This document shows, one piece after another, positions 26,926-40,033 of a DNA stretch of 64,000 nucleotides. Source of the DNA: Rhizobium sp. Root483D2 (GTDB lineage: Bacteria > Pseudomonadota > Alphaproteobacteria > Rhizobiales > Rhizobiaceae); NCBI RefSeq assembly GCF_001426685.1, contig NZ_LMFB01000008.1, positions 74,800 through 138,799 on the forward strand. The letters run 5' to 3'. The notes below the pieces were generated by a model, which ran no database searches, had not been told where the DNA came from, and saw nothing but the letters and a program-made list of their open reading frames with translations. Every line of letters starts with the position of its first letter. Positions within the stretch are counted from its first letter, which is position 1. The translations under genes were made by a program, and so were the position numbers.

Positions 26926-27996
26926 TCAGACCTTCTGACCAGCCTCGTTGAAGAAATGCAGGTTTGTCACCGGTAGCCTGACATTGACCTCGCCGTGCAT
27001 GCCAAGGAAACGGCGGTCGAGCGTGAAGGCCTTGAAGGCGACGGGGCCGAGTTTCAGGTGGACGATGATGCCGAAGCCGGTCGGCTCGACCAGATCGACG
27101 GTCGCTGCGAGCACATCCGGGCCCTCGGCGCCGAGAACCACATGTTCCGGCCGGATGCCGAGGGTGGCGCGGCTGCCATCTTCGAGATTGGCGGTGCCAC
27201 CGAGCGGCAAGACGATGCCGCCGGTCAGAGCGAAATTTGCGGTCTCGCCGGCCGCCATGTAGCGGCCTTCGAAGAAGTTCATGCCCGGCGAGCCGATGAA
27301 GCCGGCGACGAAGAGGTTGGCGGGGTTGTCATAGAGTTCGAGCGGGCTGCCGACCTGCTGAATAATGCCGCCATGCATGGCGACGATCCGGTCGGCCAGC
27401 GTCATGGCTTCGATCTGGTCGTGGGTGACGTAGATCGAGGTAGCGCCGAGGTCCTGGTGCAGCTTCTTGATCTCGGCGCGCATCTGCTCGCGCAGGCGGG
27501 CATCGAGGTTGGACAGCGGTTCGTCGAACAGGAAGGCCTTGGGCTCGCGCACGATGGCGCGGCCCATGGCGACGCGCTGGCGCTGGCCGCCGGACAGAGC
27601 TTTCGGACGCCGTTCCATCAAAGGGTCGAGCCCGAGCTTGCTGGCAGCACCGGCAACCACGGAGGCGATCTTTTCCTTGGCGGTTTTTCTGAGGCGCAGG
27701 CTGTAGCTCATGTTTTTCGCCACGCTCATATGCGGATAGAGCGCGTAGGACTGGAACACCATGGCAATGTCGCGGTCTTTCGGGGCAAGGTCGTTGACGC
27801 GTTTGCCGTCGATGCGGATTTCGCCTGACGTGACCGCTTCCAGACCGGCGATCATCCGCAGCAGCGTGGACTTGCCGCAGCCCGACGGGCCGACCAGGAC
27901 GACGAACTCGCCATCCTTGATCTCAAGATCGACACCATGCAGCACCGGGTGGATGCCATAGGACTTGCGGATAGCGGCGATATCGATGGATGCCAT
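26926..27996 (-). CDS. ABC sugar-type importer ATPase, UgpC/MalK-like
   Basis: 356 residues. Walker A VGPSGCGKST, signature LSGGQRQRVAMGRAI, Walker B FLFDEP, H-loop VTHDQ and a C-terminal regulatory (TOBE/OB) domain of the MalK/UgpC type. Last gene of the leftward importer operon, four bases after the second permease. Energises uptake with the two permeases and the binding protein upstream. The class usually handles sugars, glycerol-phosphates or glycosides. Confidence 0.93.
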   Translation of the reverse strand: MASIDIAAIRKSYGIHPVLHGVDLEIKDGEFVVLVGPSGCGKSTLLRMIAGLEAVTSGEIRIDGKRVNDLAPKDRDIAMVFQSYALYPHMSVAKNMSYSLRLRKTAKEKIASVVAGAASKLGLDPLMERRPKALSGGQRQRVAMGRAIVREPKAFLFDEPLSNLDARLREQMRAEIKKLHQDLGATSIYVTHDQIEAMTLADRIVAMHGGIIQQVGSPLELYDNPANLFVAGFIGSPGMNFFEGRYMAAGETANFALTGGIVLPLGGTANLEDGSRATLGIRPEHVVLGAEGPDVLAATVDLVEPTGFGIIVHLKLGPVAFKAFTLDRRFLGMHGEVNVRLPVTNLHFFNEAGQKV

Positions 27997-28000
27997 GGGA

Positions 28001-28834
28001 TCAGCCTTTCACGGCGCCGGCCGTCAGGCCCTGCACGAGGTAACGTTGGATCAACAGGAAGAACAGGCAGGCCGGGATGAGCGCCATGACGCCCGCCGCC
28101 ATCATCTGTCCGAAATCGACCGAGAATTTGGACACGAAGGACAGGAGCCCAACGGGGAAAGTCGCCGCATCATTGCCGGAGATCAGCATCAGCGAGAACA
28201 GGAGTTCGCTCCAGGCGGCCGTGAAGACGAAGCCGAGGGTCGCGGCGATACCCGGCAGCGTCAGCGGCAGAATGATTTGGCGGAAGGCAACGAACTGGGT
28301 GGCGCCGTCGATCATCGCGGCCTCCTCGAGATCCTTCGGGATGCCGTCGAAGAAGGACTGCATCAGGAACGTCGCGAACGGCACGTTGAAGGCGGTGTAG
28401 ACGATGACGAGGCCGGTCAGGCTGTTGGTGAGGCCGAGCGGCGAGAGGATCTTGAAGATGGGTGCCACCAGCATGACCAGCGGGAACATCTGCGTAAGCA
28501 GCATCAACGTCACGATCCAGTATTTGCCGCGGAAATTGAAGCGCGACATGGCATAGCCGGCCAGCGAAGCGAGTATCGTGACGATGATCGCGGTGGAGCC
28601 GGAAACGATCAGGCTGTTCTTGAAGAAGGTCGGGAATTCGCTGTGTTTCAGCACGAAATCGAAATGCTCGAAACTTGTCCGCGACGGCCACATCCGGATG
28701 CCTTCGGAATAGAGCAGCTTGTTGGGCGTGACCGAAACTTTGAGGAGCCAGTAGAGCGGAAACAGCGCGAAGACGACATAGGCGAGAATGGCCAGACGAT
28801 GCGCGAGAACGGAGAGGATGCGTGTGCCGGTCAT
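28001..28834 (-). CDS. ABC importer permease, MalG-like
   Basis: 277 residues, about six membrane segments. The EAA loop is EAAMIDGATQFVAFRQIILP followed by LTLPG. The N-terminus carries a single helix (LAILAYVVFALFPLYWLLKV) and a periplasmic stretch typical of MalG. It follows the MalF-like gene with four bases between them. Confidence 0.93.
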   Translation of the reverse strand: MTGTRILSVLAHRLAILAYVVFALFPLYWLLKVSVTPNKLLYSEGIRMWPSRTSFEHFDFVLKHSEFPTFFKNSLIVSGSTAIIVTILASLAGYAMSRFNFRGKYWIVTLMLLTQMFPLVMLVAPIFKILSPLGLTNSLTGLVIVYTAFNVPFATFLMQSFFDGIPKDLEEAAMIDGATQFVAFRQIILPLTLPGIAATLGFVFTAAWSELLFSLMLISGNDAATFPVGLLSFVSKFSVDFGQMMAAGVMALIPACLFFLLIQRYLVQGLTAGAVKG

Positions 28835-28838
28835 GATC

Positions 28839-29801
28839 TCAATCCTTGCTCAGGAGCCACTGCCGCAGGATCACGATCAGCATCGAATAGGTGATCAGCA
28901 GCACAAGCAGGACCAGTGCGATGGCTGAGGCATAGCCGAAATCCAGCCGCTTGAAGGCTTGCGTGAAAATATAGCTGGCGACGATCTGGCTGCGGTCGGC
29001 CGGGCCGCCATTGGTCATGACGATGATCAGGTCGGCGAAATTGGAGATCCAGACTGTGCGCAGGAGAACGGTGATGGCAATGGTCGGGGCGAGAAAGGGC
29101 AGGGTGATCGAGACGAAACGCTGCACCGGACCGGCGCCGTCAATGCTGGCCGCTTCATAGAGGTCACGCGGGATCGCCTGCAGCGCTGCCAGAAGCGTGA
29201 TGGCGAAGAAGGGAATTCCCCACCAGACATTGGCAATGATCGGCCCCCACATGGAGAGGTGCGGATCGGAGAGGATATTGGACGGCTCGCTCATGAGTCC
29301 CATCGCAAACAGCCAATGCGGAATGGGGCCGACGACGGGATTGAACAGCCAGGCCCAGTTGAGGCCGGCTAGAAAGCTGGGAACGGCCCACGGCAGGAAG
29401 ACCAAAGCCTGGACGATAGCGCGGCCATAGAAGGGCTTGTCGAGCAAAAGCGCGAGGATCAGGCCGAAGACGAATTGCAGGAGCACCGACCAGCCCGTCC
29501 ACCACAGCGTGTTCTTCAGGGCCCGGTAGAAATTCTGGTCTTCATAAAGCGTGCGGAAATGATCGAGCCCGATAAAGCCGCCGGAAAAGGGATTGAGCAG
29601 CTGGATATCGCGGAAGGCATAGGAAATGCCGAGCACCAGCGGCACCAGCATGACGGTGACGATCAGGATCAGCGCGGGCGCGCTATAGAGATAGGGCGCG
29701 GAGGCATCGGCAAGCCGCTTTTTCAGCGGCCGCTGATCCCTGTGCGCGCCGCAATTGCGGGCTGCTGCTTGTGAGGCCATCGTCAGATATTTCCGTTTCA
29801 T
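28839..29801 (-). CDS. ABC importer permease, MalF-like
   Basis: 320 residues, with six membrane helices beginning at APALILIVTVMLVPLVLGIS and the EAA loop EAASIDGAGPVQRFVSITLP. The start is uncertain: ATG 29801 has no clear ribosome site, whereas an in-frame ATG seven codons later is preceded by GGAAA. It follows a palindromic intergenic segment downstream of the binding-protein gene. Belongs to the carbohydrate uptake 1 class. Confidence 0.92.
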   Translation of the reverse strand: MKRKYLTMASQAAARNCGAHRDQRPLKKRLADASAPYLYSAPALILIVTVMLVPLVLGISYAFRDIQLLNPFSGGFIGLDHFRTLYEDQNFYRALKNTLWWTGWSVLLQFVFGLILALLLDKPFYGRAIVQALVFLPWAVPSFLAGLNWAWLFNPVVGPIPHWLFAMGLMSEPSNILSDPHLSMWGPIIANVWWGIPFFAITLLAALQAIPRDLYEAASIDGAGPVQRFVSITLPFLAPTIAITVLLRTVWISNFADLIIVMTNGGPADRSQIVASYIFTQAFKRLDFGYASAIALVLLVLLITYSMLIVILRQWLLSKD

Positions 29802-29875
29802 AGCTGTTCGCGGAGTTCGGCATTCAAGGGCGCACGCTTGCTCGCAGGCAACACCCCCTCTAGCCTGTCGGCCAT

Positions 29876-29969
29876 CTCCCCCACAAGGGAGGAGAAAACT
29901 CGGGGTAAACCTCTCGCCTCAAGCCTTGGGCAGTGCGGTGTCCGAGCCCCTCCCCCTTGTGGGGAGGGG
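29876..29969. repeat. Double-hairpin intergenic element
   Basis: Left hairpin CTCCCCCACAAGGGAGGAG at 29876-29894; right hairpin of CCCCTCCCCCTTGTGGGGAG type at 29947-29969, followed by a further GGGGAGGGG. The two are related as opposite ends of one palindromic element and differ in sequence from the RIME-like copies. It occupies the gap between the binding-protein and permease genes. Confidence 0.6.
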
Positions 29970-30003
29970 TTGGGGAGGGGCACGCCTCAGCACAGTCCTT
30001 GGC

Positions 30004-31263
30004 TTACTTTTTCGCAAGGAACTTTTGTTGCGCCTTGGTCATATAGTCAGCCCATTGCTTGGCCATCTCTTCCGGCGTGATATCGCCGAGCATGGCTTCC
30101 TGGCTGGTCTTGATCGCCATGGAATCCTTGAAGAAGGCGAATTCTTCGAGGTAAGTCGGCATCACCGTCGGAACCGCGTCCTTGTCGGCCAATTCCTCGA
30201 ACCAGCCCTTGAACTGATCGGTGGCAAAGAAGGGGTCCTTCTCGGCTGATTTGAGCGCGGGCAGGGCGCCGATCTTCTTGTTCCACTCGATATTGCCTTC
30301 CGGGCCTTCGAGCGTGGCGATCAGCTTCCAGGACAGGTCCTTGTTGGCGCTGGCCGACATCATCGACCAGCCGGCAAAACCGATGGTCGGGAAGGTCTTG
30401 CCGGAGGGTCCCTTCGGCATGGTCGTGATGCCGTAATCGGCGGCGTCCATGCGTTCGGCAATGGCGATCAGCGCATCCGGATCCTGGTCGAGCATCGCGC
30501 AGGTGCCGGTGTAGAAGCCGGCGACGATTTCGTTGAAGCCCCAGTTGACGCTGTCCTTCGGCGCATAGCCGTTCTTGTAGAGGTCGGTCATCCAGGTAAA
30601 GCCCTTGACCCAGCCTTCCTCCGAAAACTTGGATGTGCCATCGGCATTGAAATAGGTGTTGTCGCCCGCCATGGTGGCGCCCATCATCATCCAGCCGTTG
30701 AGGCCGCCCGGACCGCCGCGCATGCAATAGGCATATTTGCCCGGCAGCTTCTTGATCTTTTCGGCGGCGGCGACAAAGTCGTCCATCGTCTTTGGCGGGC
30801 CATCGACACCGGCTTCGGCGAAGATCTTCTTGTTGTAGAACATCGCCCGCAGATAGAAGCCGTAGGGCAGCATATACGCCGTGTCCTTGACGTCGCGGCC
30901 GAGTTCCAGCGCGCGATCCGTCAGTTCCGGCGTCTGGTCCCAGGTCTTGAGATAAGGCTCCAGGCTTTCGAGCATGCCGTTATTGGCGTAGAGCGACAGC
31001 CAGGTATCCGGCATTTCCATCACATCCGGGATTTCACCTGCCGACACCATCGTGGCGAACTTCTGGAAGGCTTCGCCCCAGGGCAGCGAGATGATCTCGA
31101 CCGTGGTGCCGGGATTGGCGGCTTCGAACTTGGCGACGATCGACTTCAGCGTCTCGGTGCGTTCCGGGCTGGTGATGACTTCAACCAGTTTCAGCTTGGT
31201 GTCGGCGAGCGCTGTGCCTGCCATCAGCGTGGCGACCAAGGTCGCGGCAATCAGTTTCCTCAT
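30004..31263 (-). CDS. ABC importer periplasmic binding protein, family 1 (MalE/UgpB-like)
   Basis: 419 residues. Start 31263 (MRKLIAATLVATLMAGTALA) gives a Sec signal with cleavage after ALA, and follows AAGGGAAACG. The mature protein starts DTKLKLVEVITSPERTETLK and contains the family pattern FEAANPGTTVEIISLPWGEA. Located between the PLP-enzyme gene and the permeases. The ligand is not known; the class suggests an oligosaccharide, polyol or glycosylated compound. Confidence 0.92.
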   Translation of the reverse strand: MRKLIAATLVATLMAGTALADTKLKLVEVITSPERTETLKSIVAKFEAANPGTTVEIISLPWGEAFQKFATMVSAGEIPDVMEMPDTWLSLYANNGMLESLEPYLKTWDQTPELTDRALELGRDVKDTAYMLPYGFYLRAMFYNKKIFAEAGVDGPPKTMDDFVAAAEKIKKLPGKYAYCMRGGPGGLNGWMMMGATMAGDNTYFNADGTSKFSEEGWVKGFTWMTDLYKNGYAPKDSVNWGFNEIVAGFYTGTCAMLDQDPDALIAIAERMDAADYGITTMPKGPSGKTFPTIGFAGWSMMSASANKDLSWKLIATLEGPEGNIEWNKKIGALPALKSAEKDPFFATDQFKGWFEELADKDAVPTVMPTYLEEFAFFKDSMAIKTSQEAMLGDITPEEMAKQWADYMTKAQQKFLAKK

Positions 31264-31307
31264 TTTCGTTTCCCTTTTATTGTTCAAGTGGTTTGCTTGC
31301 TGTCGTG

Positions 31308-32480
31308 TCAGCCTATCGAGGCGGCTGTGATTGCCGCTTCAATATCGCTCCAGAGGGCCTCCGTTCCCTCCAGGCCGACATGGAGCCTTACCGACCGCGG
31401 GCTGATGCCGAAGGCGACCGCGGAATTGGGTTGTGCTTTTTGTGAAAGGACGACTTCGCCCGGTACGATCAGGCTTTCGTGGCCGCCCCAGCTGACACCG
31501 AGCTTGAACAGCTCAAGGTGATCGGAGAAGGTGCGGACATTGACGCCGTCCTTGAAAATGAACGAGAATAGGCCGGACGTGCCCTTGAGGCCTGGAGCCA
31601 GCTGATTGGCAAGGCCCGGATAGCAGACCGTCTCAATCGCATCGTGCGCCTGCAGGCGCTTGGCGATTTCGACGGCCGATTGCTCATGCGCCTTCATGCG
31701 GATCGGCAACGTGCGCATGCCGCGGATCAGAAGCCAGGCATCGAACGGCGACAGCTTGCCGCCGAGATAGGGATAGGCTTCCGAGCGGATGCGGCCAATC
31801 AACTCTTTGGAGCCCGCAACGACACCGGCGACGACATCGCTGTGGCCACCAAGATATTTTGAGGCCGAATGGATGACGAGATCGACACCGAGCGCGATCG
31901 GCTGCTGGAAGACCGGGCTTGCCCAGCTATTGTCGATGGCACTGATGACGCCATGGCGCTTGGCGAGCGCTGCAAGGGCTGCGACGTCATGCGTTTGCAT
32001 GACCCAGCTTGTCGGGCTTTCGAGATAGAGAAACTTTGCGCCTGGCAGGGCCTTGGCGACCTCTTCCTCGTCGCGGCCATCGACATAGGTCACCTCGATG
32101 CCCATGCGCTTGAAGAAGGTGCCGAACAGGCGGTAGGCATCAGGATAAAGATGCTTGACGGCAACGATGCGGTCTCCGGGCTCAACGAAGGACAGCACCG
32201 TCGATGAGATGGCCGACATGCCGCTGGCAAAGCCGATGGCGTCTTCGGCGCCTTCGAGTTTCGCCAGCATGTCCTCGAAAATCCGCACGGTCGGGTTCAG
32301 GCCGCGCGTATAGATCGGCCGGACCTTTTCGCCGCGATAGGAAGCGACCATGTCGTCATAATCGGTGAAGGTGAACAGCGACGTCTGCACGATCGGCGGC
32401 ACGACGGCATCATAGGCATTGCTCACGTCATGGGCGACGATGAGGGAGGCTTCTTCGAACGGATCGAACCCGTTGCTCAT
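31308..32480 (-). CDS. Trans-sulfuration-type PLP enzyme, cystathionine beta-lyase-like
   Basis: 390 residues of the Cys/Met metabolism PLP family. The PLP Lys is K208 in HSASKYLGGHSD; phosphate-contacting Y58 and R60 are in IYTRGLNPT; the cofactor-ring Asp is in AIDNSWASP. Family members catalyse beta- or gamma-elimination or replacement on sulfur amino acids. It overlaps the GntR gene by four bases and precedes the importer genes, so it probably acts on the imported compound, perhaps a cysteine S-conjugate. The exact reaction (MetC, MetB, MetZ or novel) is undecided. Confidence 0.87.
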   Translation of the reverse strand: MSNGFDPFEEASLIVAHDVSNAYDAVVPPIVQTSLFTFTDYDDMVASYRGEKVRPIYTRGLNPTVRIFEDMLAKLEGAEDAIGFASGMSAISSTVLSFVEPGDRIVAVKHLYPDAYRLFGTFFKRMGIEVTYVDGRDEEEVAKALPGAKFLYLESPTSWVMQTHDVAALAALAKRHGVISAIDNSWASPVFQQPIALGVDLVIHSASKYLGGHSDVVAGVVAGSKELIGRIRSEAYPYLGGKLSPFDAWLLIRGMRTLPIRMKAHEQSAVEIAKRLQAHDAIETVCYPGLANQLAPGLKGTSGLFSFIFKDGVNVRTFSDHLELFKLGVSWGGHESLIVPGEVVLSQKAQPNSAVAFGISPRSVRLHVGLEGTEALWSDIEAAITAASIG

Positions 32481-33196
32481 TTGGACATTTCCTTGATGTC
32501 TTCCTCGACGATCGCGAGGATTTTCAGTGTTTCGCTGCGGGCGGCTTCAGGGTCCTGGGCCGCGATCGCATCGAAGAGAGTGCGGTGGAACGGAAAGGAG
32601 CGGCGGGCAAAGTCCGGCCGGTCGAAAGGCTTTTCCCAAAAACGCTCGAAAGCGCCGCGCATCTGTTCGAGCAGCTGCTTGAACAGCGGATTGTGGGTGG
32701 CGTCGTAAATGGCAAGATGGAAGGCAAGGTCTTCCGGCCCGGATGTGCCCTTGGAGAGATGCACCCGTTCCATCTCGTTGAGCTTCTCCTCGATCATCCG
32801 CACGTCCTGCGCTGTGCGGACGCGGGCGGCAACCATGCCGGCTTCCGCCTCGATGCCGCGGCGCACCTGCAGGGTCATCAAAAGCACGTCGCGCAGATGC
32901 GTGGTGTCCAGCGACAGAGGCATGTGGATCGTGGTGCCGGAAATCGGCTTCAACAGGTAGGTGCCGCTGCCCTTGCGGGCCTCGACGACGCCGAGTGCCT
33001 GGAAATGGCGGATGACTTCGCGGATGGTCGAGCGGCCGACGGCAAGCGCACTCATCAGCTCGCGCTCGGCCGGAAGACGGTCGCCCGGAACAAGGTTGGA
33101 GCGCTGGATGTAATCGGCAAGCGCCGCCGTCACCTGCTGCGCCCGGTCGGCCGGGGGCAGGGGGACAAGCGCTGCTCTTGCATCCAAATGCTTCAT
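32477..33196 (-). CDS. GntR-family regulator, FadR subfamily
   Basis: 239 residues. N-terminal winged helix (LPAERELMSALAVGRSTIRE followed by VIRHFQALGVVEARKGSGTY) and an all-helical FCD ligand domain whose metal-binding His residues may include those in DLAFHLAIYDATHN and FHRTLFDAI. Start 33196 is chosen over 33250 because the family sequence begins there. First gene of the leftward operon and translationally coupled to the PLP enzyme, so it probably represses its own operon until the substrate is present. No clear operator palindrome was found upstream. Confidence 0.9.
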   Translation of the reverse strand: MKHLDARAALVPLPPADRAQQVTAALADYIQRSNLVPGDRLPAERELMSALAVGRSTIREVIRHFQALGVVEARKGSGTYLLKPISGTTIHMPLSLDTTHLRDVLLMTLQVRRGIEAEAGMVAARVRTAQDVRMIEEKLNEMERVHLSKGTSGPEDLAFHLAIYDATHNPLFKQLLEQMRGAFERFWEKPFDRPDFARRSFPFHRTLFDAIAAQDPEAARSETLKILAIVEEDIKEMSK

Positions 33197-33420
33197 CGTC
33201 CGCTTTCCAGCCGAAACCAGAATTGGTCTGACATCTGAGCAATAGTGCAAATCATGACGCTGCCGTCAAGCGCGTTTATCCGGCGCTGATGAAAGCTGTG
33301 TGGAGTAGGGGACACGTTTGGATGGGTGATCCGGTCTGCTGGCACACAAGAGGAAGGGATTCACCAGACAGGGGACGCCGTCCTCCCGCGAAGAACAATA
33401 GAACCCAGCCTGTCATTCAT

Positions 33421-34419
33421 TCAGGGAATGTCACTGGGCGTTACTGCCGCTGAATCCGCAAGCCCTGCAGGATAGGTACGGCCGCTCAGCGGTACCGCGT
33501 CGATCGCGGCAACCAGTCTGTCCACCAGCAGATTTTCGGCGCGGCTGCCGCGCGCAAACCGCCGGGTGACTAGGTAGACATCGGCGGCGGGCGGGTTTTC
33601 GTAGGGCGGCAATTGCCAGAGTTGCCGCGCCTCGATATCGGCGGCGACGACATGGATAGGGAGCGGCCCGAAGCCGAAACCGACTTTGATCAGCCGCTTG
33701 ACCTCTTCGAGATTGGTGAAAAGACCAAGCACCTGGCCGCTGAAATTTTCCCGCTGCCGCAGCCGGGCGACCGGTGCGAGTGCGCCGCCGAGGTGATCGG
33801 TCTTGAAGGATACGTAATCAAGCGTAGCGAGATCGGCAGTCTGCGTCCCGCGTTTGCCGAACAGCGGATGACCGGGGGCGCAGAAAAAGCCGAAATGCTC
33901 GCGATAGAGCACGGTGTAGTCCAGTTCCGGGTGCTTTTCATGGGCAAGACAGATGCCGAGGCAGGCTTCGCCGGACAGGACATTCTCGATCACCGTTTGG
34001 CTGGCGGAGACCGTGGTGGAGAAACTGACACGCGGAAACGTCCTGTGGAAGTCGGCCAGGAACCGGTCGAGGAACGGGCATTCGATATGGCTGGCAAAGG
34101 CCATCTCCACATGGCCGGTCACCAGATCCGGATCGTCCTTCACGAGATCCGGCAGGCCGTTGACGATGTTGAACATGGTCTGGCATTCGGCATAGAGCCG
34201 GGTTCCTGCCGGCGTCGTGCGGAAATGGTTGGAGGCGCGGTCGATCAGGCGGCAGGCCATATGCTCTTCGAGGCGGCGCAGCGCATTGCTGATGGTCGGC
34301 TGCTTCAGCGACAGCCGGTTGCCCGCAGCCGTCAGGCTCTTTTCCTCGACGATCACCGTGAAGGTGCGCAGGAGGTTCCAGTCGATCTCCCAGACAAAAC
34401 GGCGTCTTGGGCTGGCCAT
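33421..34419 (-). CDS. LysR-family transcriptional regulator
   Basis: 332 residues. Helix-turn-helix at about residues 13-72 (NLLRTFTVIVEEKSLTAAGN, then KQPTISNALRRLEEHMACRL), then a two-lobed effector domain. The N-terminus has a short basic extension (MASPRRRF) and the C-terminus is about 20 residues longer than usual. Divergent from the dimethylformamidase-like operon with about 108 bases between, containing an imperfect inverted repeat. It is the likely activator of that operon. Confidence 0.88.
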   Translation of the reverse strand: MASPRRRFVWEIDWNLLRTFTVIVEEKSLTAAGNRLSLKQPTISNALRRLEEHMACRLIDRASNHFRTTPAGTRLYAECQTMFNIVNGLPDLVKDDPDLVTGHVEMAFASHIECPFLDRFLADFHRTFPRVSFSTTVSASQTVIENVLSGEACLGICLAHEKHPELDYTVLYREHFGFFCAPGHPLFGKRGTQTADLATLDYVSFKTDHLGGALAPVARLRQRENFSGQVLGLFTNLEEVKRLIKVGFGFGPLPIHVVAADIEARQLWQLPPYENPPAADVYLVTRRFARGSRAENLLVDRLVAAIDAVPLSGRTYPAGLADSAAVTPSDIP

Positions 34420-34433
34420 GGGTCACCTCATTC

Positions 34434-34462
34434 ATTTGGTGAATGCTGGTCCTTCACCTAAT
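34434..34462. promoter_or_regulatory. LysR operator candidate, 10-9-10 inverted repeat
   Basis: ATTTGGTGAA and TTCACCTAAT, nine bases apart, are inverted repeats with one mismatch. The site is 15 bases upstream of the LysR start and about 65 bases upstream of the divergent operon, the usual place for an autoregulatory and activation site. Confidence 0.55.
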
Positions 34463-34527: not shown

Positions 34528-36165
34528 GTGACCGATCAAGACCCAGTTTTCCCCGATTTCGGATTGACCCCGGAGCAGCGGCACCAGGCCGTTCGCGGTC
34601 ACTATTACGAATATCCGGGCATGGACGGCGCCCGTGGCGAAATCTGGTGCTACACACGGTCCTATGCCTATGCGCCCGGCGCAATGGTGGACCTGCATAT
34701 CAGCTCGACCGCGTCCTCCTGCCGTCTGGAAATCGTGCGTGACGGTGCCGCCGAGACCAGCGTTTATGGCACCGACAATATCGAAACGGTCTGGCAGGAA
34801 ACGCCGGACCAGGTCTCCGTCACCGGCTGTGGCTGGGAGCCCACTTTTAAGTTTCAGGTCCATGACAGCTGGCCATCCGGCGCCTATCGCATCACGCTGA
34901 CGGCTGAAGGGCGCGACGGCAAGCCGATCCAATGTCACCACATGATCATCGTCCTGCCGAAACCCGGTCCGAAACCCGGCCGCATCCTGCAGGTCGCCGC
35001 CACCGGCACCTGGACGGCCTATAATACCTGGGGCGGATCGAACCATTATCAGGGCATTACCGGTCCCAACCGCGACAAATATGCGACTACCGTCAGCATC
35101 GAGCGGCCGCTTTGCCGCGGCTTTGTCGTACTGCCGCTGGATGCGCCGCGCGTGCCGCTGGAGGTCAGCCTGCCGCCGGGCACCATCCCGCGGTATCCGC
35201 ATATGGAATGGGCCTTTGCCAACGGCTATTCGAAGAAATACACCTCGTCCGGCTGGGCAAGCTATGACAGCCAGTTCTTCCGCTGGGCCGAGCGCGAGGG
35301 CTATGGCGTCGATCTGGCCAGCCAGCACGAGTTGCACAACAATCCCGGCATTCTCAATGATTACGACTGCGTCGTCTTCGTCGGCCATGACGAATACTGG
35401 ACCTGGGAAATGCGCGATGCCGTCGATGCCTATGTCGATCAGGGCGGACATGTCGCGCGCTTTGCCGGCAATTTCATGTGGCAGACGCGGCTTGAAGACG
35501 AGGGCCAGCGGCAGGTCTGCTACAAATATGTCGCGCGCAAAGAAGACCCGATCTACCAAAGCGGCGATGTCACCCGCGCCACCAATTCCTGGGAAGCGCC
35601 GGAGATAGGCCGCCCCGGCGCACTGACTTTCGGGCTCAACGCCACCAATGGTGTCTATTCCGGCTGGGGCGGCTGCGCGCCGCGCGGCGTGCGCGGTTTC
35701 CCGATCTACCGGCCGCGTCACTGGGCCTTTGCCGGAACCGGCCTGTTCTACGGCGACCTGCTCGGCGCCGACAGCCATATCTATGGCTACGAAGTCGATG
35801 GTCTTGCCTATGAGATTCGCTACGGCCTGCCTTATCCGGCAGCTGACAGCGGCGCGCCGGAGGGGCTGGAAATCCTGGCTCTGGGCATGGCGAGCCAGGT
35901 CGAGGAAAGCGATATCCTGACGCGCGAAGATCTGTTTTTCGGCGACGAGGACGGGCGGTTCATTGCCGAGACGCTCTATGGCGAAGCGAGCGACGAGAAC
36001 ATGGAAAAGGTTCGCTACAGCAACGGCATGATCGTCAACTTCAAGCGCGGCAAGGGCGAGGTTTTCCACGCTGGGACCTGCGAATGGGTGGCAGGCCTGC
36101 TGCGCCGTGACGCCATGGTCGAGCGCGTCACCGCCAATGTGCTGAACCGCTATCTCAACCGATAA
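34528..36165 (+). CDS. N,N-dimethylformamidase large-subunit-like protein
   Basis: 545 residues. It shows the large-subunit pattern of dimethylformamidase, including AYNTWGGSN (residues 164-172) and VGHDEYWTWEMRD (285-297), the second rich in Tyr/Glu residues of the kind that bind the mononuclear iron in the known enzyme. The characterised enzyme has a longer large subunit and a separate small subunit; neither the extra N-terminal length nor a small-subunit gene is seen here. It starts with GTG at 34528 after GCGAGG. First gene of an operon with an aminotransferase, BKACE, GNAT and deacetylase. Probably hydrolyses an amide; the substrate is unknown. Confidence 0.75.
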   Translation: MTDQDPVFPDFGLTPEQRHQAVRGHYYEYPGMDGARGEIWCYTRSYAYAPGAMVDLHISSTASSCRLEIVRDGAAETSVYGTDNIETVWQETPDQVSVTGCGWEPTFKFQVHDSWPSGAYRITLTAEGRDGKPIQCHHMIIVLPKPGPKPGRILQVAATGTWTAYNTWGGSNHYQGITGPNRDKYATTVSIERPLCRGFVVLPLDAPRVPLEVSLPPGTIPRYPHMEWAFANGYSKKYTSSGWASYDSQFFRWAEREGYGVDLASQHELHNNPGILNDYDCVVFVGHDEYWTWEMRDAVDAYVDQGGHVARFAGNFMWQTRLEDEGQRQVCYKYVARKEDPIYQSGDVTRATNSWEAPEIGRPGALTFGLNATNGVYSGWGGCAPRGVRGFPIYRPRHWAFAGTGLFYGDLLGADSHIYGYEVDGLAYEIRYGLPYPAADSGAPEGLEILALGMASQVEESDILTREDLFFGDEDGRFIAETLYGEASDENMEKVRYSNGMIVNFKRGKGEVFHAGTCEWVAGLLRRDAMVERVTANVLNRYLNR

Positions 36166-36187
36166 TTTCACCAAAGAGCAGAGCATC

Positions 36188-37552
36188 ATGACCATCCAAG
36201 CCAATGAGCGGCCCGCATCCCATCTCTTCTACGTGACCCGCCTGCGCCGGCCGCTGGTCGATCGCGCCGAGGGCATTTATTTCTGGACCGCGGACGGCCG
36301 CCGCTTCATCGACGGCTCGAGCGGGCCGATGGTCAGCAATATCGGCCACGGCAACCGGCACGTCATCGATGCCATGAAGCGGCAGATGGAGAAGACGAGC
36401 TTTGCCTACCGTCTGCATTTTGAAAACGAGCCGGCCGAAGAGCTGGCCCGGCGGCTCGCCGGAAAGATGCCTGGCGATCTCGACCGGATCTTTTTCGTCT
36501 CCGGCGGTTCGGAAGCCGTGGAATCGGCAATCAAGCTGGCGCGGCAATGGGCAGTGGCAACCAGCCAGCCGAAGCGCTGGAAAGTGATCTGCCGGTTTCC
36601 GTCCTACCATGGCGGCACGATGGGCGCACTTGGCGTGACCGGAGACCTGGCGCTGACTGAAACCTTTGCGCCGCAGATCCAGCCGATGCCGGCCATTCCG
36701 GCTCCGACAGCCTACCGCGACCGCGACAACCTGACGATGGAACAGCGCGGCCTGCGTTACGCCGACATGCTGGAGGAGAAAATCCTTGCCGAAGGGCCTG
36801 ACAGCGTCGTTGCGTTCATCATGGAGCCAATCGGCGGGGCGGCAACGGCAGCGCTTGTCGCACCCGATAGCTATTTTGCGCGCATCCGCGAAATCTGCGA
36901 CAAATACGGTATCCTGCTGATCCATGACGAGGTGATGAGCGGCGCGGCGCGCACCGGCCGCTATCTCGGCGGCGACCACTGGAACTGCAAGCCTGACATC
37001 ATCACTCTCTCGAAGGGCATCGGCTCCGGCTACGCCGCGCTTGGCGCCATGGTTGCCTCGTCCAAGCTGGTCAAGCCAGTGCTCGACATGGGCGGCTTCC
37101 AGCATGGCTATACCTATGCCGGCAATCCGCTGGCCTGCGCTGCCGGTCTGGCTGTGCTTGAGGAAATGGAACGGCTTGGCGTCGAAGCCAATGCGGCTGC
37201 GATGGGGGATCTGCTGAAATCCGAACTGGAGGGGCTTTCCAGGCGCTTCCCCTTTATAGCCGGCGTGCGCGGCAAGGGGCTGTTGATCGGCGCCGATCTC
37301 GTCGCCGATCCTGTGACCTTTAAATCCTTTCCGAAATCACAGGCGACCAACCAGCGGCTGCTCGATATCGCCTATGAAAAAGGCCTCATCCTCTATTCGC
37401 GCCGTATCCGCGGCGATGGCTACGAGGCCGACAATCTCATTCTGGCCCCGCCGCTGATCATCACGGCTCAGGAAATCGGCGATATGGTCTCGATCCTTGG
37501 CGATAGTTTCGAGCAGCTGGCACGTGAACTCGACCTGCCGGTGAACGGCTGA
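36188..37552 (+). CDS. Class III PLP-dependent aminotransferase
   Basis: 454 residues, fold type I omega-aminotransferase family. The PLP Lys is K276 in TLSKGIGSGYAALG, the pyridine-binding Asp D247 in LIHDEVMSG, and phosphate-binding residues lie in FVSGGSEAVESA. Members deaminate omega-amino acids, polyamines, beta-alanine, taurine or glutamate semialdehyde. Twenty-two bases after the amidase-like gene and ten bases before BKACE, so surely one transcript. It could turn an amine released by the first enzyme into an aldehyde or keto acid; this is inference. Confidence 0.9.
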   Translation: MTIQANERPASHLFYVTRLRRPLVDRAEGIYFWTADGRRFIDGSSGPMVSNIGHGNRHVIDAMKRQMEKTSFAYRLHFENEPAEELARRLAGKMPGDLDRIFFVSGGSEAVESAIKLARQWAVATSQPKRWKVICRFPSYHGGTMGALGVTGDLALTETFAPQIQPMPAIPAPTAYRDRDNLTMEQRGLRYADMLEEKILAEGPDSVVAFIMEPIGGAATAALVAPDSYFARIREICDKYGILLIHDEVMSGAARTGRYLGGDHWNCKPDIITLSKGIGSGYAALGAMVASSKLVKPVLDMGGFQHGYTYAGNPLACAAGLAVLEEMERLGVEANAAAMGDLLKSELEGLSRRFPFIAGVRGKGLLIGADLVADPVTFKSFPKSQATNQRLLDIAYEKGLILYSRRIRGDGYEADNLILAPPLIITAQEIGDMVSILGDSFEQLARELDLPVNG

Positions 37553-37562
37553 GAGCGCGATC

Positions 37563-38492
37563 ATGAAGAACAAAGTCATCATCACCTGCGCCGTCACCGG
37601 CTCCGTCCACACACCGTCGATGAGCCCCTATCTGCCGGTCACGCCGGACGAGATCGCCGGACAGGCGATCGCTGCGGCCGAAGCCGGCGCGTCGATCCTG
37701 CATCTGCATGCCCGCAATCCAACGGATGGCCGCCCGACCGCCGATCCCGCCGTGTTCATGCAATTCCTGCCACGCATCAAGCAGTCGACGGATGCCGTCA
37801 TCAATATTTCCACCGGCGGCAGCTCGCTGATGACGCTGGACGAGCGCCTGGCCGCCTCGCTCCAGGCACAGCCGGAAATGTGCTCGCTCAACATGGGCTC
37901 GATGAATTTCGGTATTTTCCCGCTCGCCAAGCCCGGCATGGAATGGCAACACGACTGGGAGCCGCAGCTGCTGGAGGCGACGCGCGGCACGATCTTCAAG
38001 AACACCTTTGCCGATATCGAAGATATTCTCAAACGGCTGGGCGAGGGGTGCGGCACGCGTTTCGAATTCGAATGCTATGATGTCGGCCATCTCTATTCGC
38101 TGAAGCATTTCTACGATCGCGGGCTGGTGAAAGGCCCGCTGTTCATCCAGTTCGTGCTGGGAATTCTCGGCGGCATCGGCGCCGATCCCGACAATCTCAG
38201 CCATATGAAGCGCATTGCCGACAAGCTGTTCGGCGCGGACTATCGCTTCTCTGTTCTGGCGGCCGGCCGCCAGCAGATGCCGCTGATCACCATGGGAGCG
38301 GCGATGGGCGGCAATGTGCGGGTCGGGCTCGAAGACAGCCTCTATCTCGGGCGCGGTGAACTGGCCAAATCCAATGCGGACCAGGTGAGCCGCATCCGCA
38401 CCATTCTTGAAGCCCTGTCGCTGGACGTCGCGACCCCCGGCGAGGCGCGCGCGATGCTGGCGCTCAAGGGCGGCGATCGGGTGGGCTTCTGA
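37563..38492 (+). CDS. Beta-keto acid cleavage enzyme (BKACE, DUF849)
   Basis: 309 residues, zinc-dependent TIM barrel. The zinc ligands H47 and H49 are in ILHLHARNPTDGRPT, and the conserved Glu of the C-terminal metal site is in GNVRVGLEDSLYLGRGELA. BKACE enzymes condense a beta-keto acid with acetyl-CoA to give acetoacetate and a shorter acyl-CoA; the first known member, Kce, acts in lysine fermentation. Its stop overlaps the next gene's start. The identity of the beta-keto acid is the key unknown of this operon. Confidence 0.9.
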   Translation: MKNKVIITCAVTGSVHTPSMSPYLPVTPDEIAGQAIAAAEAGASILHLHARNPTDGRPTADPAVFMQFLPRIKQSTDAVINISTGGSSLMTLDERLAASLQAQPEMCSLNMGSMNFGIFPLAKPGMEWQHDWEPQLLEATRGTIFKNTFADIEDILKRLGEGCGTRFEFECYDVGHLYSLKHFYDRGLVKGPLFIQFVLGILGGIGADPDNLSHMKRIADKLFGADYRFSVLAAGRQQMPLITMGAAMGGNVRVGLEDSLYLGRGELAKSNADQVSRIRTILEALSLDVATPGEARAMLALKGGDRVGF

Positions 38493-39004
38493 TGGCGGAG
38501 CATTCGAACCCGCCCGTAACGATCCGCGTTGCGGCCGCCGAGGACGTGCATCTCATCCATGCCGGCCTGCTCATCATCGCCCGGCATCTCGATGCGGAAG
38601 GCAAGGTGACTGCGACGCCGGAAGACCTGCGCAAGCATGGTTTCGGGCCAAAGCCTGCCTTCACCGTTCTGCTGGCGGAATCCGGTGGCGAATTTGCCGG
38701 CATGTGTCTGTTTTTTCCAAGCTTTTCCACATGGCGCGGCTGCACCGGCGCCTATATCCAGGATATTGCCGTCGAAGAACGCTTTCGCGGCACAGGGGTC
38801 GGCGTGGCGCTCCTGCGCCACACGGCAGCGCATGTCCGCACCGAGGGGGGCCGCTATCTGCGCCTGTCGGTCGAAGCGAAGAATGTCTCGGCGCAGCATT
38901 TTTATGAGCGGATGGGGCTTGCCTGGTCCAGCGAGGAGCGCATTCATGCGGCCTATGGCGAGGCTTTCGAAGCGCTGGCCGGAGAGCATGAGAGCGGGGT
39001 TTAA
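38492..39004 (+). CDS. GNAT-family N-acetyltransferase
   Basis: 170 residues. The acetyl-CoA-binding motif A is visible as IQDIAVEERFRGTGVGVALL (RGTGVG P-loop-like turn), followed by the LRLSVEAKNVSAQHFYERMG motif B. Resembles small-molecule acetyltransferases such as diamine or aminoglycoside types rather than protein acetyltransferases. One-base overlap with BKACE and three-base gap to the deacetylase. It may acetylate an amine intermediate or detoxify the substrate. Confidence 0.87.
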   Translation: MAEHSNPPVTIRVAAAEDVHLIHAGLLIIARHLDAEGKVTATPEDLRKHGFGPKPAFTVLLAESGGEFAGMCLFFPSFSTWRGCTGAYIQDIAVEERFRGTGVGVALLRHTAAHVRTEGGRYLRLSVEAKNVSAQHFYERMGLAWSSEERIHAAYGEAFEALAGEHESGV

Positions 39005-39007
39005 GCA

Positions 39008-40033
39008 ATGAGTATGAAGACATTTTACGCTGAAGAGCAGGCGAAACACGATCCGAAAATGTTTCTCTCCAGCGGCGCCCCCCAGCCCAATCCGGAAAAG
39101 CCGGAGCGGATCGCACGGCTTCTCGCAGGCGCAAAGGCGGCGGGCTCCGAGATCGTCAGACCGCGTAATCATGGCCTAAAACCAATCGCCGCTGTGCATA
39201 CGCCGGAATATCTGGAATTCCTGCAAAACATCTTTCTGCGCTGGCAGCGCATCGAGGGTGCCTCGCAAGAGGTGATCCCGAATATCCATCCGCTGGCAAG
39301 AACCGGCTGCTATCCAGCCTCCGCCGTCGGCCAGGCCGGTTATCACATGGCCGATACGGCTTGCCCGATCTCGTCCGATACCTGGGGCAGCGCCTGCTGG
39401 AGCGCCTGGAGCGCTGTCGAGGCGGCGGAAGCGATTCTGGCCGGCGCCCACCACACCTATGCGCTCTGCCGCCCGCCGGGTCACCACGCCTTTGCCGATG
39501 TGGCCGGAGGGTTCTGCTTCCTCAACAATTCCGCAATTGCTGCTCAGCATCTGCTGACGTCGTCGAAACGCGTCGCTATCCTCGATATCGATCTGCATCA
39601 CGGCAACGGAACGCAGGGCATCTTCTATGGCCGCAGCGACGTGCTGACGGTATCGTTGCATGCCGATCCCGTGCGCTTCTATCCGTTCTTCTGGGGCAAT
39701 GCCGATGAACGCGGCGAAGGCCTGGGGCTGGGCTACAACTACAATCTGCCACTGCCACGCAAGACCGCCGACGCCGGTTTCCTCGAAGCACTCGACGCCG
39801 CCAACCGCCGCATCGAAGCCTATGCACCGGACGCGCTGGTGGTTGCGCTTGGCCTCGACGCCTTCGAAGGCGATCCCTTCGGCGGACTATCCGTTTCCAC
39901 CCCCGGCTTTGCCCGCATCGCCGAAGCCATCAGCAACCTCAGCCTCCCAACCGTCATCGTCCAGGAAGGCGGCTATCTCTGCGACGCGCTCGGCGATAAC
40001 CTGACGTCGTTTTTGACCGGGTTCGGGCATTGA
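39008..40033 (+). CDS. Histone-deacetylase-family hydrolase, acetylpolyamine amidohydrolase-like
   Basis: 341 residues with a complete zinc active site: H159 and H160 in RPPGHHAFADVAGG, metal ligands D195, H197 and D284 in DIDLHHGNG and GLDAFEGDP, and the transition-state Tyr Y323 in EGGYLCD. Class II HDAC-like bacterial enzymes of this size often deacetylate acetylpolyamines or other acetylated amines. Last gene of the operon, three bases after an acetyltransferase, so opposing acetylation and deacetylation steps are encoded together. The natural substrate is unknown. Confidence 0.9.
   Translation: MSMKTFYAEEQAKHDPKMFLSSGAPQPNPEKPERIARLLAGAKAAGSEIVRPRNHGLKPIAAVHTPEYLEFLQNIFLRWQRIEGASQEVIPNIHPLARTGCYPASAVGQAGYHMADTACPISSDTWGSACWSAWSAVEAAEAILAGAHHTYALCRPPGHHAFADVAGGFCFLNNSAIAAQHLLTSSKRVAILDIDLHHGNGTQGIFYGRSDVLTVSLHADPVRFYPFFWGNADERGEGLGLGYNYNLPLPRKTADAGFLEALDAANRRIEAYAPDALVVALGLDAFEGDPFGGLSVSTPGFARIAEAISNLSLPTVIVQEGGYLCDALGDNLTSFLTGFGH

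Follow-up and report, generated by a model that had tools for sequence, protein, structure and literature searches.

Related pathways and the locus

The aerobic degradation of L-beta-lysine by a Pseudomonas, reportedly worked out in the Barker laboratory around 1979-1981 (EC 2.6.1.65 and EC 3.5.1.51), is said to run through an acetyltransferase, an aminotransferase, an acetoacetate-forming cleavage and a deacetylase/thioesterase to 4-aminobutyrate. We know of no genes attached to the enzymes of this route, and literature searches for it returned no title or abstract describing the route among the matches listed. Its four activity classes appear to be encoded together in a five-gene operon of Rhizobium sp. 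Root483D2, on the plus strand at positions 34528-40033 of the 64,000-nucleotide stretch analyzed here (the window). The operon encodes a dimethylformamidase-like (DMF-like) hydrolase of the DMFA2_C family, a class III aminotransferase, a beta-keto acid cleavage enzyme (BKACE), a GNAT acetyltransferase and an acetylpolyamine amidohydrolase-like deacetylase of the histone deacetylase (HDAC) fold (Table 1). The Pseudomonas route is not known to have an amide hydrolase as a front end, whereas the present system is rhizobial, includes such a front end and has a predicted substrate; by analogy, the operon may nevertheless work in the same manner. With four of the five activities matching, the statement in the initial annotation that no pathway with this set has been described is doubtful; a literature search for the five-gene set found no describing paper among the matches listed.

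Two other systems share part of this logic. The fermentative lysine pathway, which includes the 3-keto-5-aminohexanoate cleavage enzyme Kce, likewise leads from a beta-amino acid through a beta-keto acid to BKACE; however, it is anaerobic, employs lysine 2,3-aminomutase and keeps the amine free, without acetylation. Ectoine catabolism (doe/eut) resembles the operon in combining ring opening, deacetylation and transamination, but it acts on an alpha,gamma-diamino acid and is not known to involve BKACE.

Judging from the gene set and its conservation, we consider it roughly 60% probable that this operon of a soil rhizobium serves the breakdown of a basic beta-amino acid, with L-beta-lysine as the likeliest candidate, which arrives free or amide-bound. 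From N-acylated or amide-bound forms, the beta-amino acid would be released by the DMFA2-family iron hydrolase, and the GNAT protein would acetylate the far (omega) amine, yielding a neutral chain in which the later ketone could not cyclise. The aminotransferase would then take off the beta-amino group, so that beta-lysine would end up as 6-acetamido-3-oxohexanoate. BKACE, the family chemistry of which is known, would convert this presumed substrate and acetyl-coenzyme A (CoA) to 4-acetamidobutyryl-CoA and acetoacetate. Finally, the acetylpolyamine amidohydrolase-like enzyme would remove the acetyl group (and CoA) to give 4-aminobutyrate, with the help of an acyl-CoA thioesterase in some relatives. 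The general scheme, in which the far amine is capped, a beta-keto acid is formed, two carbons are cut off and the amine is uncapped, is likely to be correct and appears well supported at the genomic level, the exact substrate less so; that it is beta-lysine instead of a near homologue such as beta-ornithine is put forward tentatively, at somewhat below even odds. We favor the scheme because of the enzyme replacements, the modules lacking the DMF-like gene, the relatives of the GNAT protein, the fold of the DMF-like protein, the BKACE tree and the substrates of BKACE15; what the analysis itself shows is which genes are present, how they are conserved, to which families and folds they belong and how they are replaced. 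The initial annotation had already proposed that an amide is hydrolyzed first, that deamination then yields a beta-keto acid for cleavage by BKACE and that an amine is reversibly acetylated, all of which is upheld as a plausible prediction; the interpretation offered there is thus partly supported.

Conservation of the gene set and variants of the module

Conservation was counted around the relatives of the first gene in species genomes, taking the best 80 of 322 and accepting partners that share its strand and lie no more than 7 kb away. The aminotransferase, BKACE, GNAT and deacetylase genes all accompany the DMF-like gene in 44 of these 80 loci, with identities of at least 55, 70, 38 and 55%, respectively. 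The genes are thus conserved together, contrary to the possibility raised along with the initial annotation that they might not be. The remaining loci combine the DMF-like gene with BKACE and the deacetylase (4), with the aminotransferase and GNAT (2) or with BKACE, GNAT and the deacetylase (1), are truncated by a contig end (2) or belong to the set without BKACE discussed below. The flanking genes vary between the Rhizobium-, Ciceribacter- and Mesorhizobium-type loci (20 loci inspected in detail) while the partners stay together, an argument that selection maintains the set. Pararhizobium qamdonense carries the operon on a 615-kb plasmid in identical order and with like annotation, at 95-100% protein identity. 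Four loci (L016, L019, L020 and L030) keep the DMF-like, BKACE and deacetylase genes, and a partnerless GNAT orthologue (53-54%) is found about 40-60 kb away on the same contig.

The module also occurs in several other arrangements. Type A consists of a LysR gene, a polar-amino-acid ATP-binding cassette (ABC) transporter and the DMF-like, aminotransferase and BKACE genes, to which L120 adds the deacetylase and a thioesterase. In the genome of L120, the operon of which has no GNAT gene, a GNAT gene (52%) lies elsewhere, beside a 67-residue HDAC-like match (L249, 8669-9397). Two loci, on plasmids labelled Roseateles sp. XES5 (L104) and Shinella sp. PSBB067 (L196), combine an ABC transporter of the amino-acid type with the aminotransferase, BKACE, GNAT, deacetylase and thioesterase genes, and thus encode the thioesterase of the Pseudomonas route as well; the DMF-like gene is absent. 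The binding protein of L104, of the polar-amino-acid type, passes no NCBIfam cut-off (for cystine it scores 190 of 312 bits, for lysine/arginine/ornithine 177.8 of 256) and among solved structures is closest to glutamine-type and ancestral ones, so with no clear ligand the transporter does not reveal the substrate.

Type B (L096, L109, L148, L163, L169, L170, L172, L174 and L180) comprises a LysR gene, a polyamine-type transporter with a binding protein distantly similar to putrescine-binding proteins, the aminotransferase, BKACE, the deacetylase and a gene resembling flavin adenine dinucleotide (FAD) oxidoreductases, which is accompanied by a RidA-like gene in L148. A search anchored on GNAT, and hence favoring this gene, added the complete loci L242 and L243, L246 without a match to the FAD gene and L245 without a transporter match. 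Aminotransferase, BKACE, GNAT and deacetylase genes thus stand together with a polyamine-type transporter, without the DMF-like gene, in L109, L242 and L243 (with the FAD gene) and in L246 (without it). In L125, BKACE is found with a transporter of type B and the FAD gene, and the aminotransferase and deacetylase of the module are missing. In type C (L106, L123 and L124, three genomes of one genus), the aminotransferase, BKACE and GNAT are found with an ArgE/DapE deacylase that replaces the HDAC-fold deacetylase, and in L098 an amidohydrolase and an alanine racemase-like gene are added to the module.

Enzyme replacements in S. medicae

The most extensive replacement is found on plasmid pSU277_3 of S. 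medicae (L184, 13220-19020). An amino-acid ABC transporter and a DMF-like gene (68%) are present and, beyond a LysR gene on the opposite strand, there are genes for 3-oxoacid CoA-transferase A/B, an ArgE/DapE deacylase, a thiolase, a GNAT protein (41%) and a class III aminotransferase. The LysR protein is 49% identical to that of L096 and the deacylase 50% identical to that of L106. The aminotransferase differs from that of the window (25%); among solved structures it is closest to beta-transaminases (2yku, E = 1.6e-129, and 6iz9) and to a beta-phenylalanine aminotransferase (4ao9). BKACE is replaced by the CoA-transferase and thiolase, while ArgE/DapE takes the place of the HDAC-fold deacetylase and a relative of beta-transaminases that of the aminotransferase. 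Activation of a beta-keto acid as its CoA ester followed by thiolysis has the same net effect as BKACE, namely the removal of two carbons. Three unrelated replacements, each conserving the predicted reaction, would be difficult to account for if the intermediate were anything other than an N-acylated beta-keto acid derived from a beta-amino acid. Two contexts (L251 and L252) among 17 matches to the S. medicae beta-transaminase relative contain no module genes except transporter matches.

The encoded enzymes

The phylogeny of BKACE appears to track module membership: 36 of the 38 module rows fall into one group of 40 rows (support 93/90), and the two outside it are L125 and L105, in the latter of which only the deacetylase is nearby. 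The tree includes 104 of 138 rows, with 34 of the 54 type-A rows dropped for thinning, and excludes matches shorter than 295 residues or containing stops as well as loci after L190. The next gene after one unlinked member of the module group (L154, 10088-10831) is creatininase-like (by eye) and would encode a further hydrolase of amide rings. The paralogue in the genome of the window (L091, 8398-9303; 61%) lies beside aldehyde dehydrogenase-like and GMC oxidoreductase-like genes (by eye), branches outside the group and probably serves a different beta-keto acid pathway. Most relatives of the window BKACE do other things, given that 58 of 77 contexts contain none of the scored genes; the aminotransferase is found in 17 and the aminotransferase with a deacetylase in 13. 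These contexts comprise 17 of the 33 places of one search and 60 of the 85 of another, mostly top-ranked and hence not a random sample. With the Kce model of lysine fermentation (NF052387), the window BKACE scores 244.7 bits, below the cut-off of 382.

The nearest relative with reported substrates among those encountered, BKACE15 of Paracoccus denitrificans (8RIO), is a member of the same family and has the catalytic glutamate in common with the window protein: Glu171 corresponds to E170 within FEFECYD. According to the part of PMC11961710 considered here, BKACE15 accepts neutral beta-keto acids of 5-6 carbons, including beta-ketohexanoate and 3,5-dioxohexanoate; its physiological role is given there as unknown, and the gene context is said to suggest aromatic degradation. 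The substrate groups of Bastard et al. 2014, available second-hand through portions of PMC11961710 and PMC4922564, include, in a table of the latter, one BKACE group for hydrophobic and uncharged polar substrates. The preference of BKACE15 is counted in favor of a capped, neutral intermediate, and 6-acetamido-3-oxohexanoate would suit such a pocket.

The first gene is predicted to encode a hydrolase of N-acyl- or amide-bound beta-amino acids. A single-sequence phmmer search of the PDB with this protein found no genuine relative, whereas a profile of the DMF-like family did recover relatives. By shared fold, the model is equally close to dimethylformamidase (DMFase) and to N-acetyl-(R)-beta-phenylalanine acylase, so the family named in the initial annotation holds while its label, dimethylformamidase-like, is too narrow. 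The acylase (8huy, 8i59 and 8i5a; function by PDB title) is 21-22% identical in the structural alignment, has 723-734 residues against 545 here and acts on an aromatic substrate; a literature search for it returned no paper on the enzyme among the matches listed. The Paracoccus DMFase (6lvb), as described in the portion of PMC7686228 consulted, is also larger (761 residues) and differs in having a pentraxin domain and an extra small subunit. Of the DMFase active site, E521 (an iron ligand) and H519 (catalytic) align with E289 and H287 (i-Evalue of the stretch 2.5e-9), invariant in 47 of 47 sequences. The iron ligand Y399 aligns with Y165, equally invariant but located in a weak stretch (14.0 bits, i-Evalue 0.12), and the second tyrosine ligand, Y440, lies in a gap of the profile alignment (DMFase 400 to 478). 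Iron binding and amidase activity are predicted from the family.

DMF-like genes (66-74%) are also found on Rhizobium conjugative plasmids among M24, AsnC and M20 genes (L185, L190 and L191), in two cases (L190 and L191) near genes annotated eutC and eutB, a point in common with ectoine catabolism. The S. terangae plasmid has a second DMF-like copy roughly 8 kb ahead of the intact gene (L192, 2306-3788); its matches are split, and it is probably broken.

The GNAT protein is predicted to acetylate a basic beta-amino acid at its omega amine. The solved structures closest to it are a probable N-acetyltransferase (2fe7, 1.8e-13), thialysine acetyltransferase (12jc, 4.8e-13) and the unnamed 7zhc; diamine acetyltransferase 2 (2bei, 2.8e-10) and the plant ornithine N5-acetyltransferase NATA1 (8xj5, 8.2e-9) follow, with unnamed ones between, and nourseothricin acetyltransferase (5c82, 1.9e-5) is distant. 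Judging from their names, the first three relatives with a named substrate act on diamines or lysine-like amino acids at a terminal amine. No NCBIfam cut-off was passed, the top match being streptothricin acetyltransferase (41.3 against 420 bits). In the GNAT-anchored search (18 contexts of 24 matches), contact with the module is seen in 8 contexts and missing from the other 10; the family is therefore not module-specific.

The aminotransferase is predicted to transaminate the acetylated beta-amino acid at its beta position; it reaches no cut-off among the best 25 of 69 NCBIfam families (top match NF005375, 421.4 against 535). The best solved relative of the deacetylase is the acetylpolyamine aminohydrolase 3men (335 bits), and H159, H160, D195, H197, D284 and Y323, which we take to be the zinc ligands and the catalytic histidine and tyrosine, are conserved with respect to 3men and 9gkz. 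Among eight plasmid loci selected by this gene, L099-L103 (53-59%) lack BKACE, so the deacetylase by itself is not diagnostic.

Weighing the proposed pathway

Several observations weigh against the degradation of a basic beta-amino acid by this gene set. The aminotransferase, GNAT and deacetylase accompany the DMF-like gene without BKACE in 27 of the 80 loci; in ten Mesorhizobium genomes of this kind, the best BKACE relatives reach only 59-63%, and the four of these placed in the tree (L092-L094 and L097) fall outside the module group. Both the aminotransferase and GNAT are missing from L016, L019, L020 and L030 (two named Ciceribacter, two metagenome bins) and the aminotransferase from L065, and only relatives of 36-38% identity to the aminotransferase were found for these five. 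No GNAT or deacetylase match lies near type-A loci L132, L135 and L136 (one genus) and L141, and GNAT is present in just L109 of the nine type-B modules. In the BKACE tree, 4 of the 40 rows of the module group are unlinked, the support is not starred and the bootstrap had not settled; furthermore, BKACE exceeds the cut-off of NF053538, a model named for 3,5-dioxohexanoate:acetyl-CoA acetone transferase, although a model name is not proof of activity. The complete replaced set was found on one plasmid only, its transporter is only distantly similar (ATPase 49%, binding protein 27%), and the DMF-like gene and the replaced set are separate transcription units. In S. terangae, the CoA-transferase, thiolase and transporter genes occupy the strand opposite to the DMF-like gene, some 5 kb away from it, with no GNAT, aminotransferase or deacylase match. 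Lysine 2,3-aminomutase reaches the cut-off in none of 385 genomes, and none of the weaker matches in 37 genomes lies within 70 kb of BKACE on the same contig (by eye, as far as contig breaks allow); beta-lysine would thus come from outside. As a module partner the aminomutase was rejected, BKACE being present in 11 of the 37 genomes with a weaker match (by eye) vs 62 of the 348 others, which is no strong link.

Among the alternatives, a fairly unlikely one retains the scheme and changes the chain: beta-ornithine (3,5-diaminopentanoate) or a 3,5-diaminohexanoate would be converted to 3-acetamidopropionyl-CoA and then beta-alanine, or to 3-acetamidobutyryl-CoA and then 3-aminobutyrate. The presence of NATA1 beside thialysine acetyltransferase among the GNAT relatives, as well as the NF053538 score, would fit such substrates; against this, none of the genes sets the chain length, and beta-lysine has both a described aerobic route and known natural sources.

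Degradation of acetylpolyamines or omega-amino acids, with the deacetylase acting on acetylputrescine or acetylspermidine, the aminotransferase on the terminal amine and BKACE in a separate step, would agree with the closest solved relative of the deacetylase, with the type-B binding protein and with the putrescine and gamma-aminobutyrate (GABA) transaminases among class III aminotransferases. This pathway is nonetheless improbable: it has no need for BKACE, for its replacement by CoA-transferase and thiolase or for a beta-transaminase relative, and the type-A transporters are of the polar-amino-acid type. It is likewise very unlikely that the operon handles a neutral beta-keto acid (3,5-dioxohexanoate or a short-chain one), with GNAT and the deacetylase as unrelated passengers. 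The NF053538 match, the substrates reported for BKACE15 and the absence of GNAT and/or the deacetylase from some loci point in this direction, but GNAT recurs in differently arranged modules and alongside a non-homologous deacetylase, and passengers would not be swapped for enzymes of the same predicted reaction.

We assign a similarly low probability to an antibiotic origin, in which the DMF-like enzyme would cut a streptothricin-type beta-lysyl amide and the rest of the operon would consume the beta-lysine. A front-end amide hydrolase from a family that includes an N-acyl-beta-amino acid acylase would be appropriate for this role, and streptothricin acetyltransferase, although far under its cut-off, is the top NCBIfam match of GNAT, with 5c82 a distant relative; against this, the GNAT protein is nearer to the solved enzymes for diamines and thialysine, and the modules of L104 and L196 have no DMF-like gene. 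Carnitine, polyamine-only and protein-acetylation readings were dropped as a poor fit to the replacements.

Organization of the locus and its surroundings

The layout described in the initial annotation, five tightly packed genes with a divergent LysR gene, is confirmed in its coordinates and Pfam families (DMFA2_C, Aminotran_3, BKACE, GNAT, Hist_deacetyl and LysR; Table 1). The successive genes are separated by 22 bp, 10 bp, a 1-bp overlap and 3 bp. The LysR protein reaches no cut-off among the best 25 of 50 NCBIfam families; related LysR genes lie beside the module in many relatives. Both arms of the inverted repeat in the spacer are conserved in 9 aligned sequences (the window and 8 relatives), which makes it a candidate LysR binding site.

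Table 1. Features of the operon and its regulatory region (positions in the window)
Feature	Position	Strand	Assignment and remarks
LysR-type regulator	33421..34419	-	PF00126/PF03466; divergent, 108 bp before operon
Inverted repeat ATTCA-N5-TGAAT, flanking C and G	34429..34445	.	spacer between LysR and first gene; candidate LysR binding site
DMFA2_C-family (2-Tyr-1-carboxylate iron amidase-like) hydrolase, 545 aa	34528..36165	+	PF20254, 229.4 bits vs 27
Class III aminotransferase	36188..37552	+	PF00202, 304 bits
BKACE	37563..38492	+	PF05853, 365.4 bits; NF053538, 532.8 bits vs cut-off 430
GNAT acetyltransferase	38492..39004	+	PF00583
HDAC-fold acetylpolyamine amidohydrolase-like deacetylase	39008..40033	+	PF00850, 253 bits

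The source genome is 6.04 Mb. Upstream of the LysR gene, a separate reverse-strand set (26926-33250) encodes a sugar-type ABC transporter, a GntR/FCD regulator and a pyridoxal phosphate (PLP) enzyme of Cys/Met metabolism (NF004627, 703.8 vs 508 bits), an odd companion for such a transporter. A Fur-type regulator and a metal transporter are encoded downstream of the operon.

Implications

In a broader perspective, which we regard as possible though doubtful, the operon would represent an alphaproteobacterial catabolic module of the plug-in kind, serving amino acids of the beta-lysine type through swappable front ends that strip them from conjugates, possibly including the beta-lysyl antibiotics of soil Streptomyces. 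These front ends would be the DMFA2 iron amidase, the FAD oxidoreductase (in L148 with the RidA-like gene) and the amidohydrolase with the racemase. If the proposed pathway is correct, candidate genes would become available for four steps of beta-lysine degradation that are not known to have any, and a DMFA2-family enzyme would acquire a natural substrate class and role. BKACE would be given a physiological role within a module that occurs in several families of Alphaproteobacteria, and its substitution by CoA-transferase and thiolase would represent a second, independent route.

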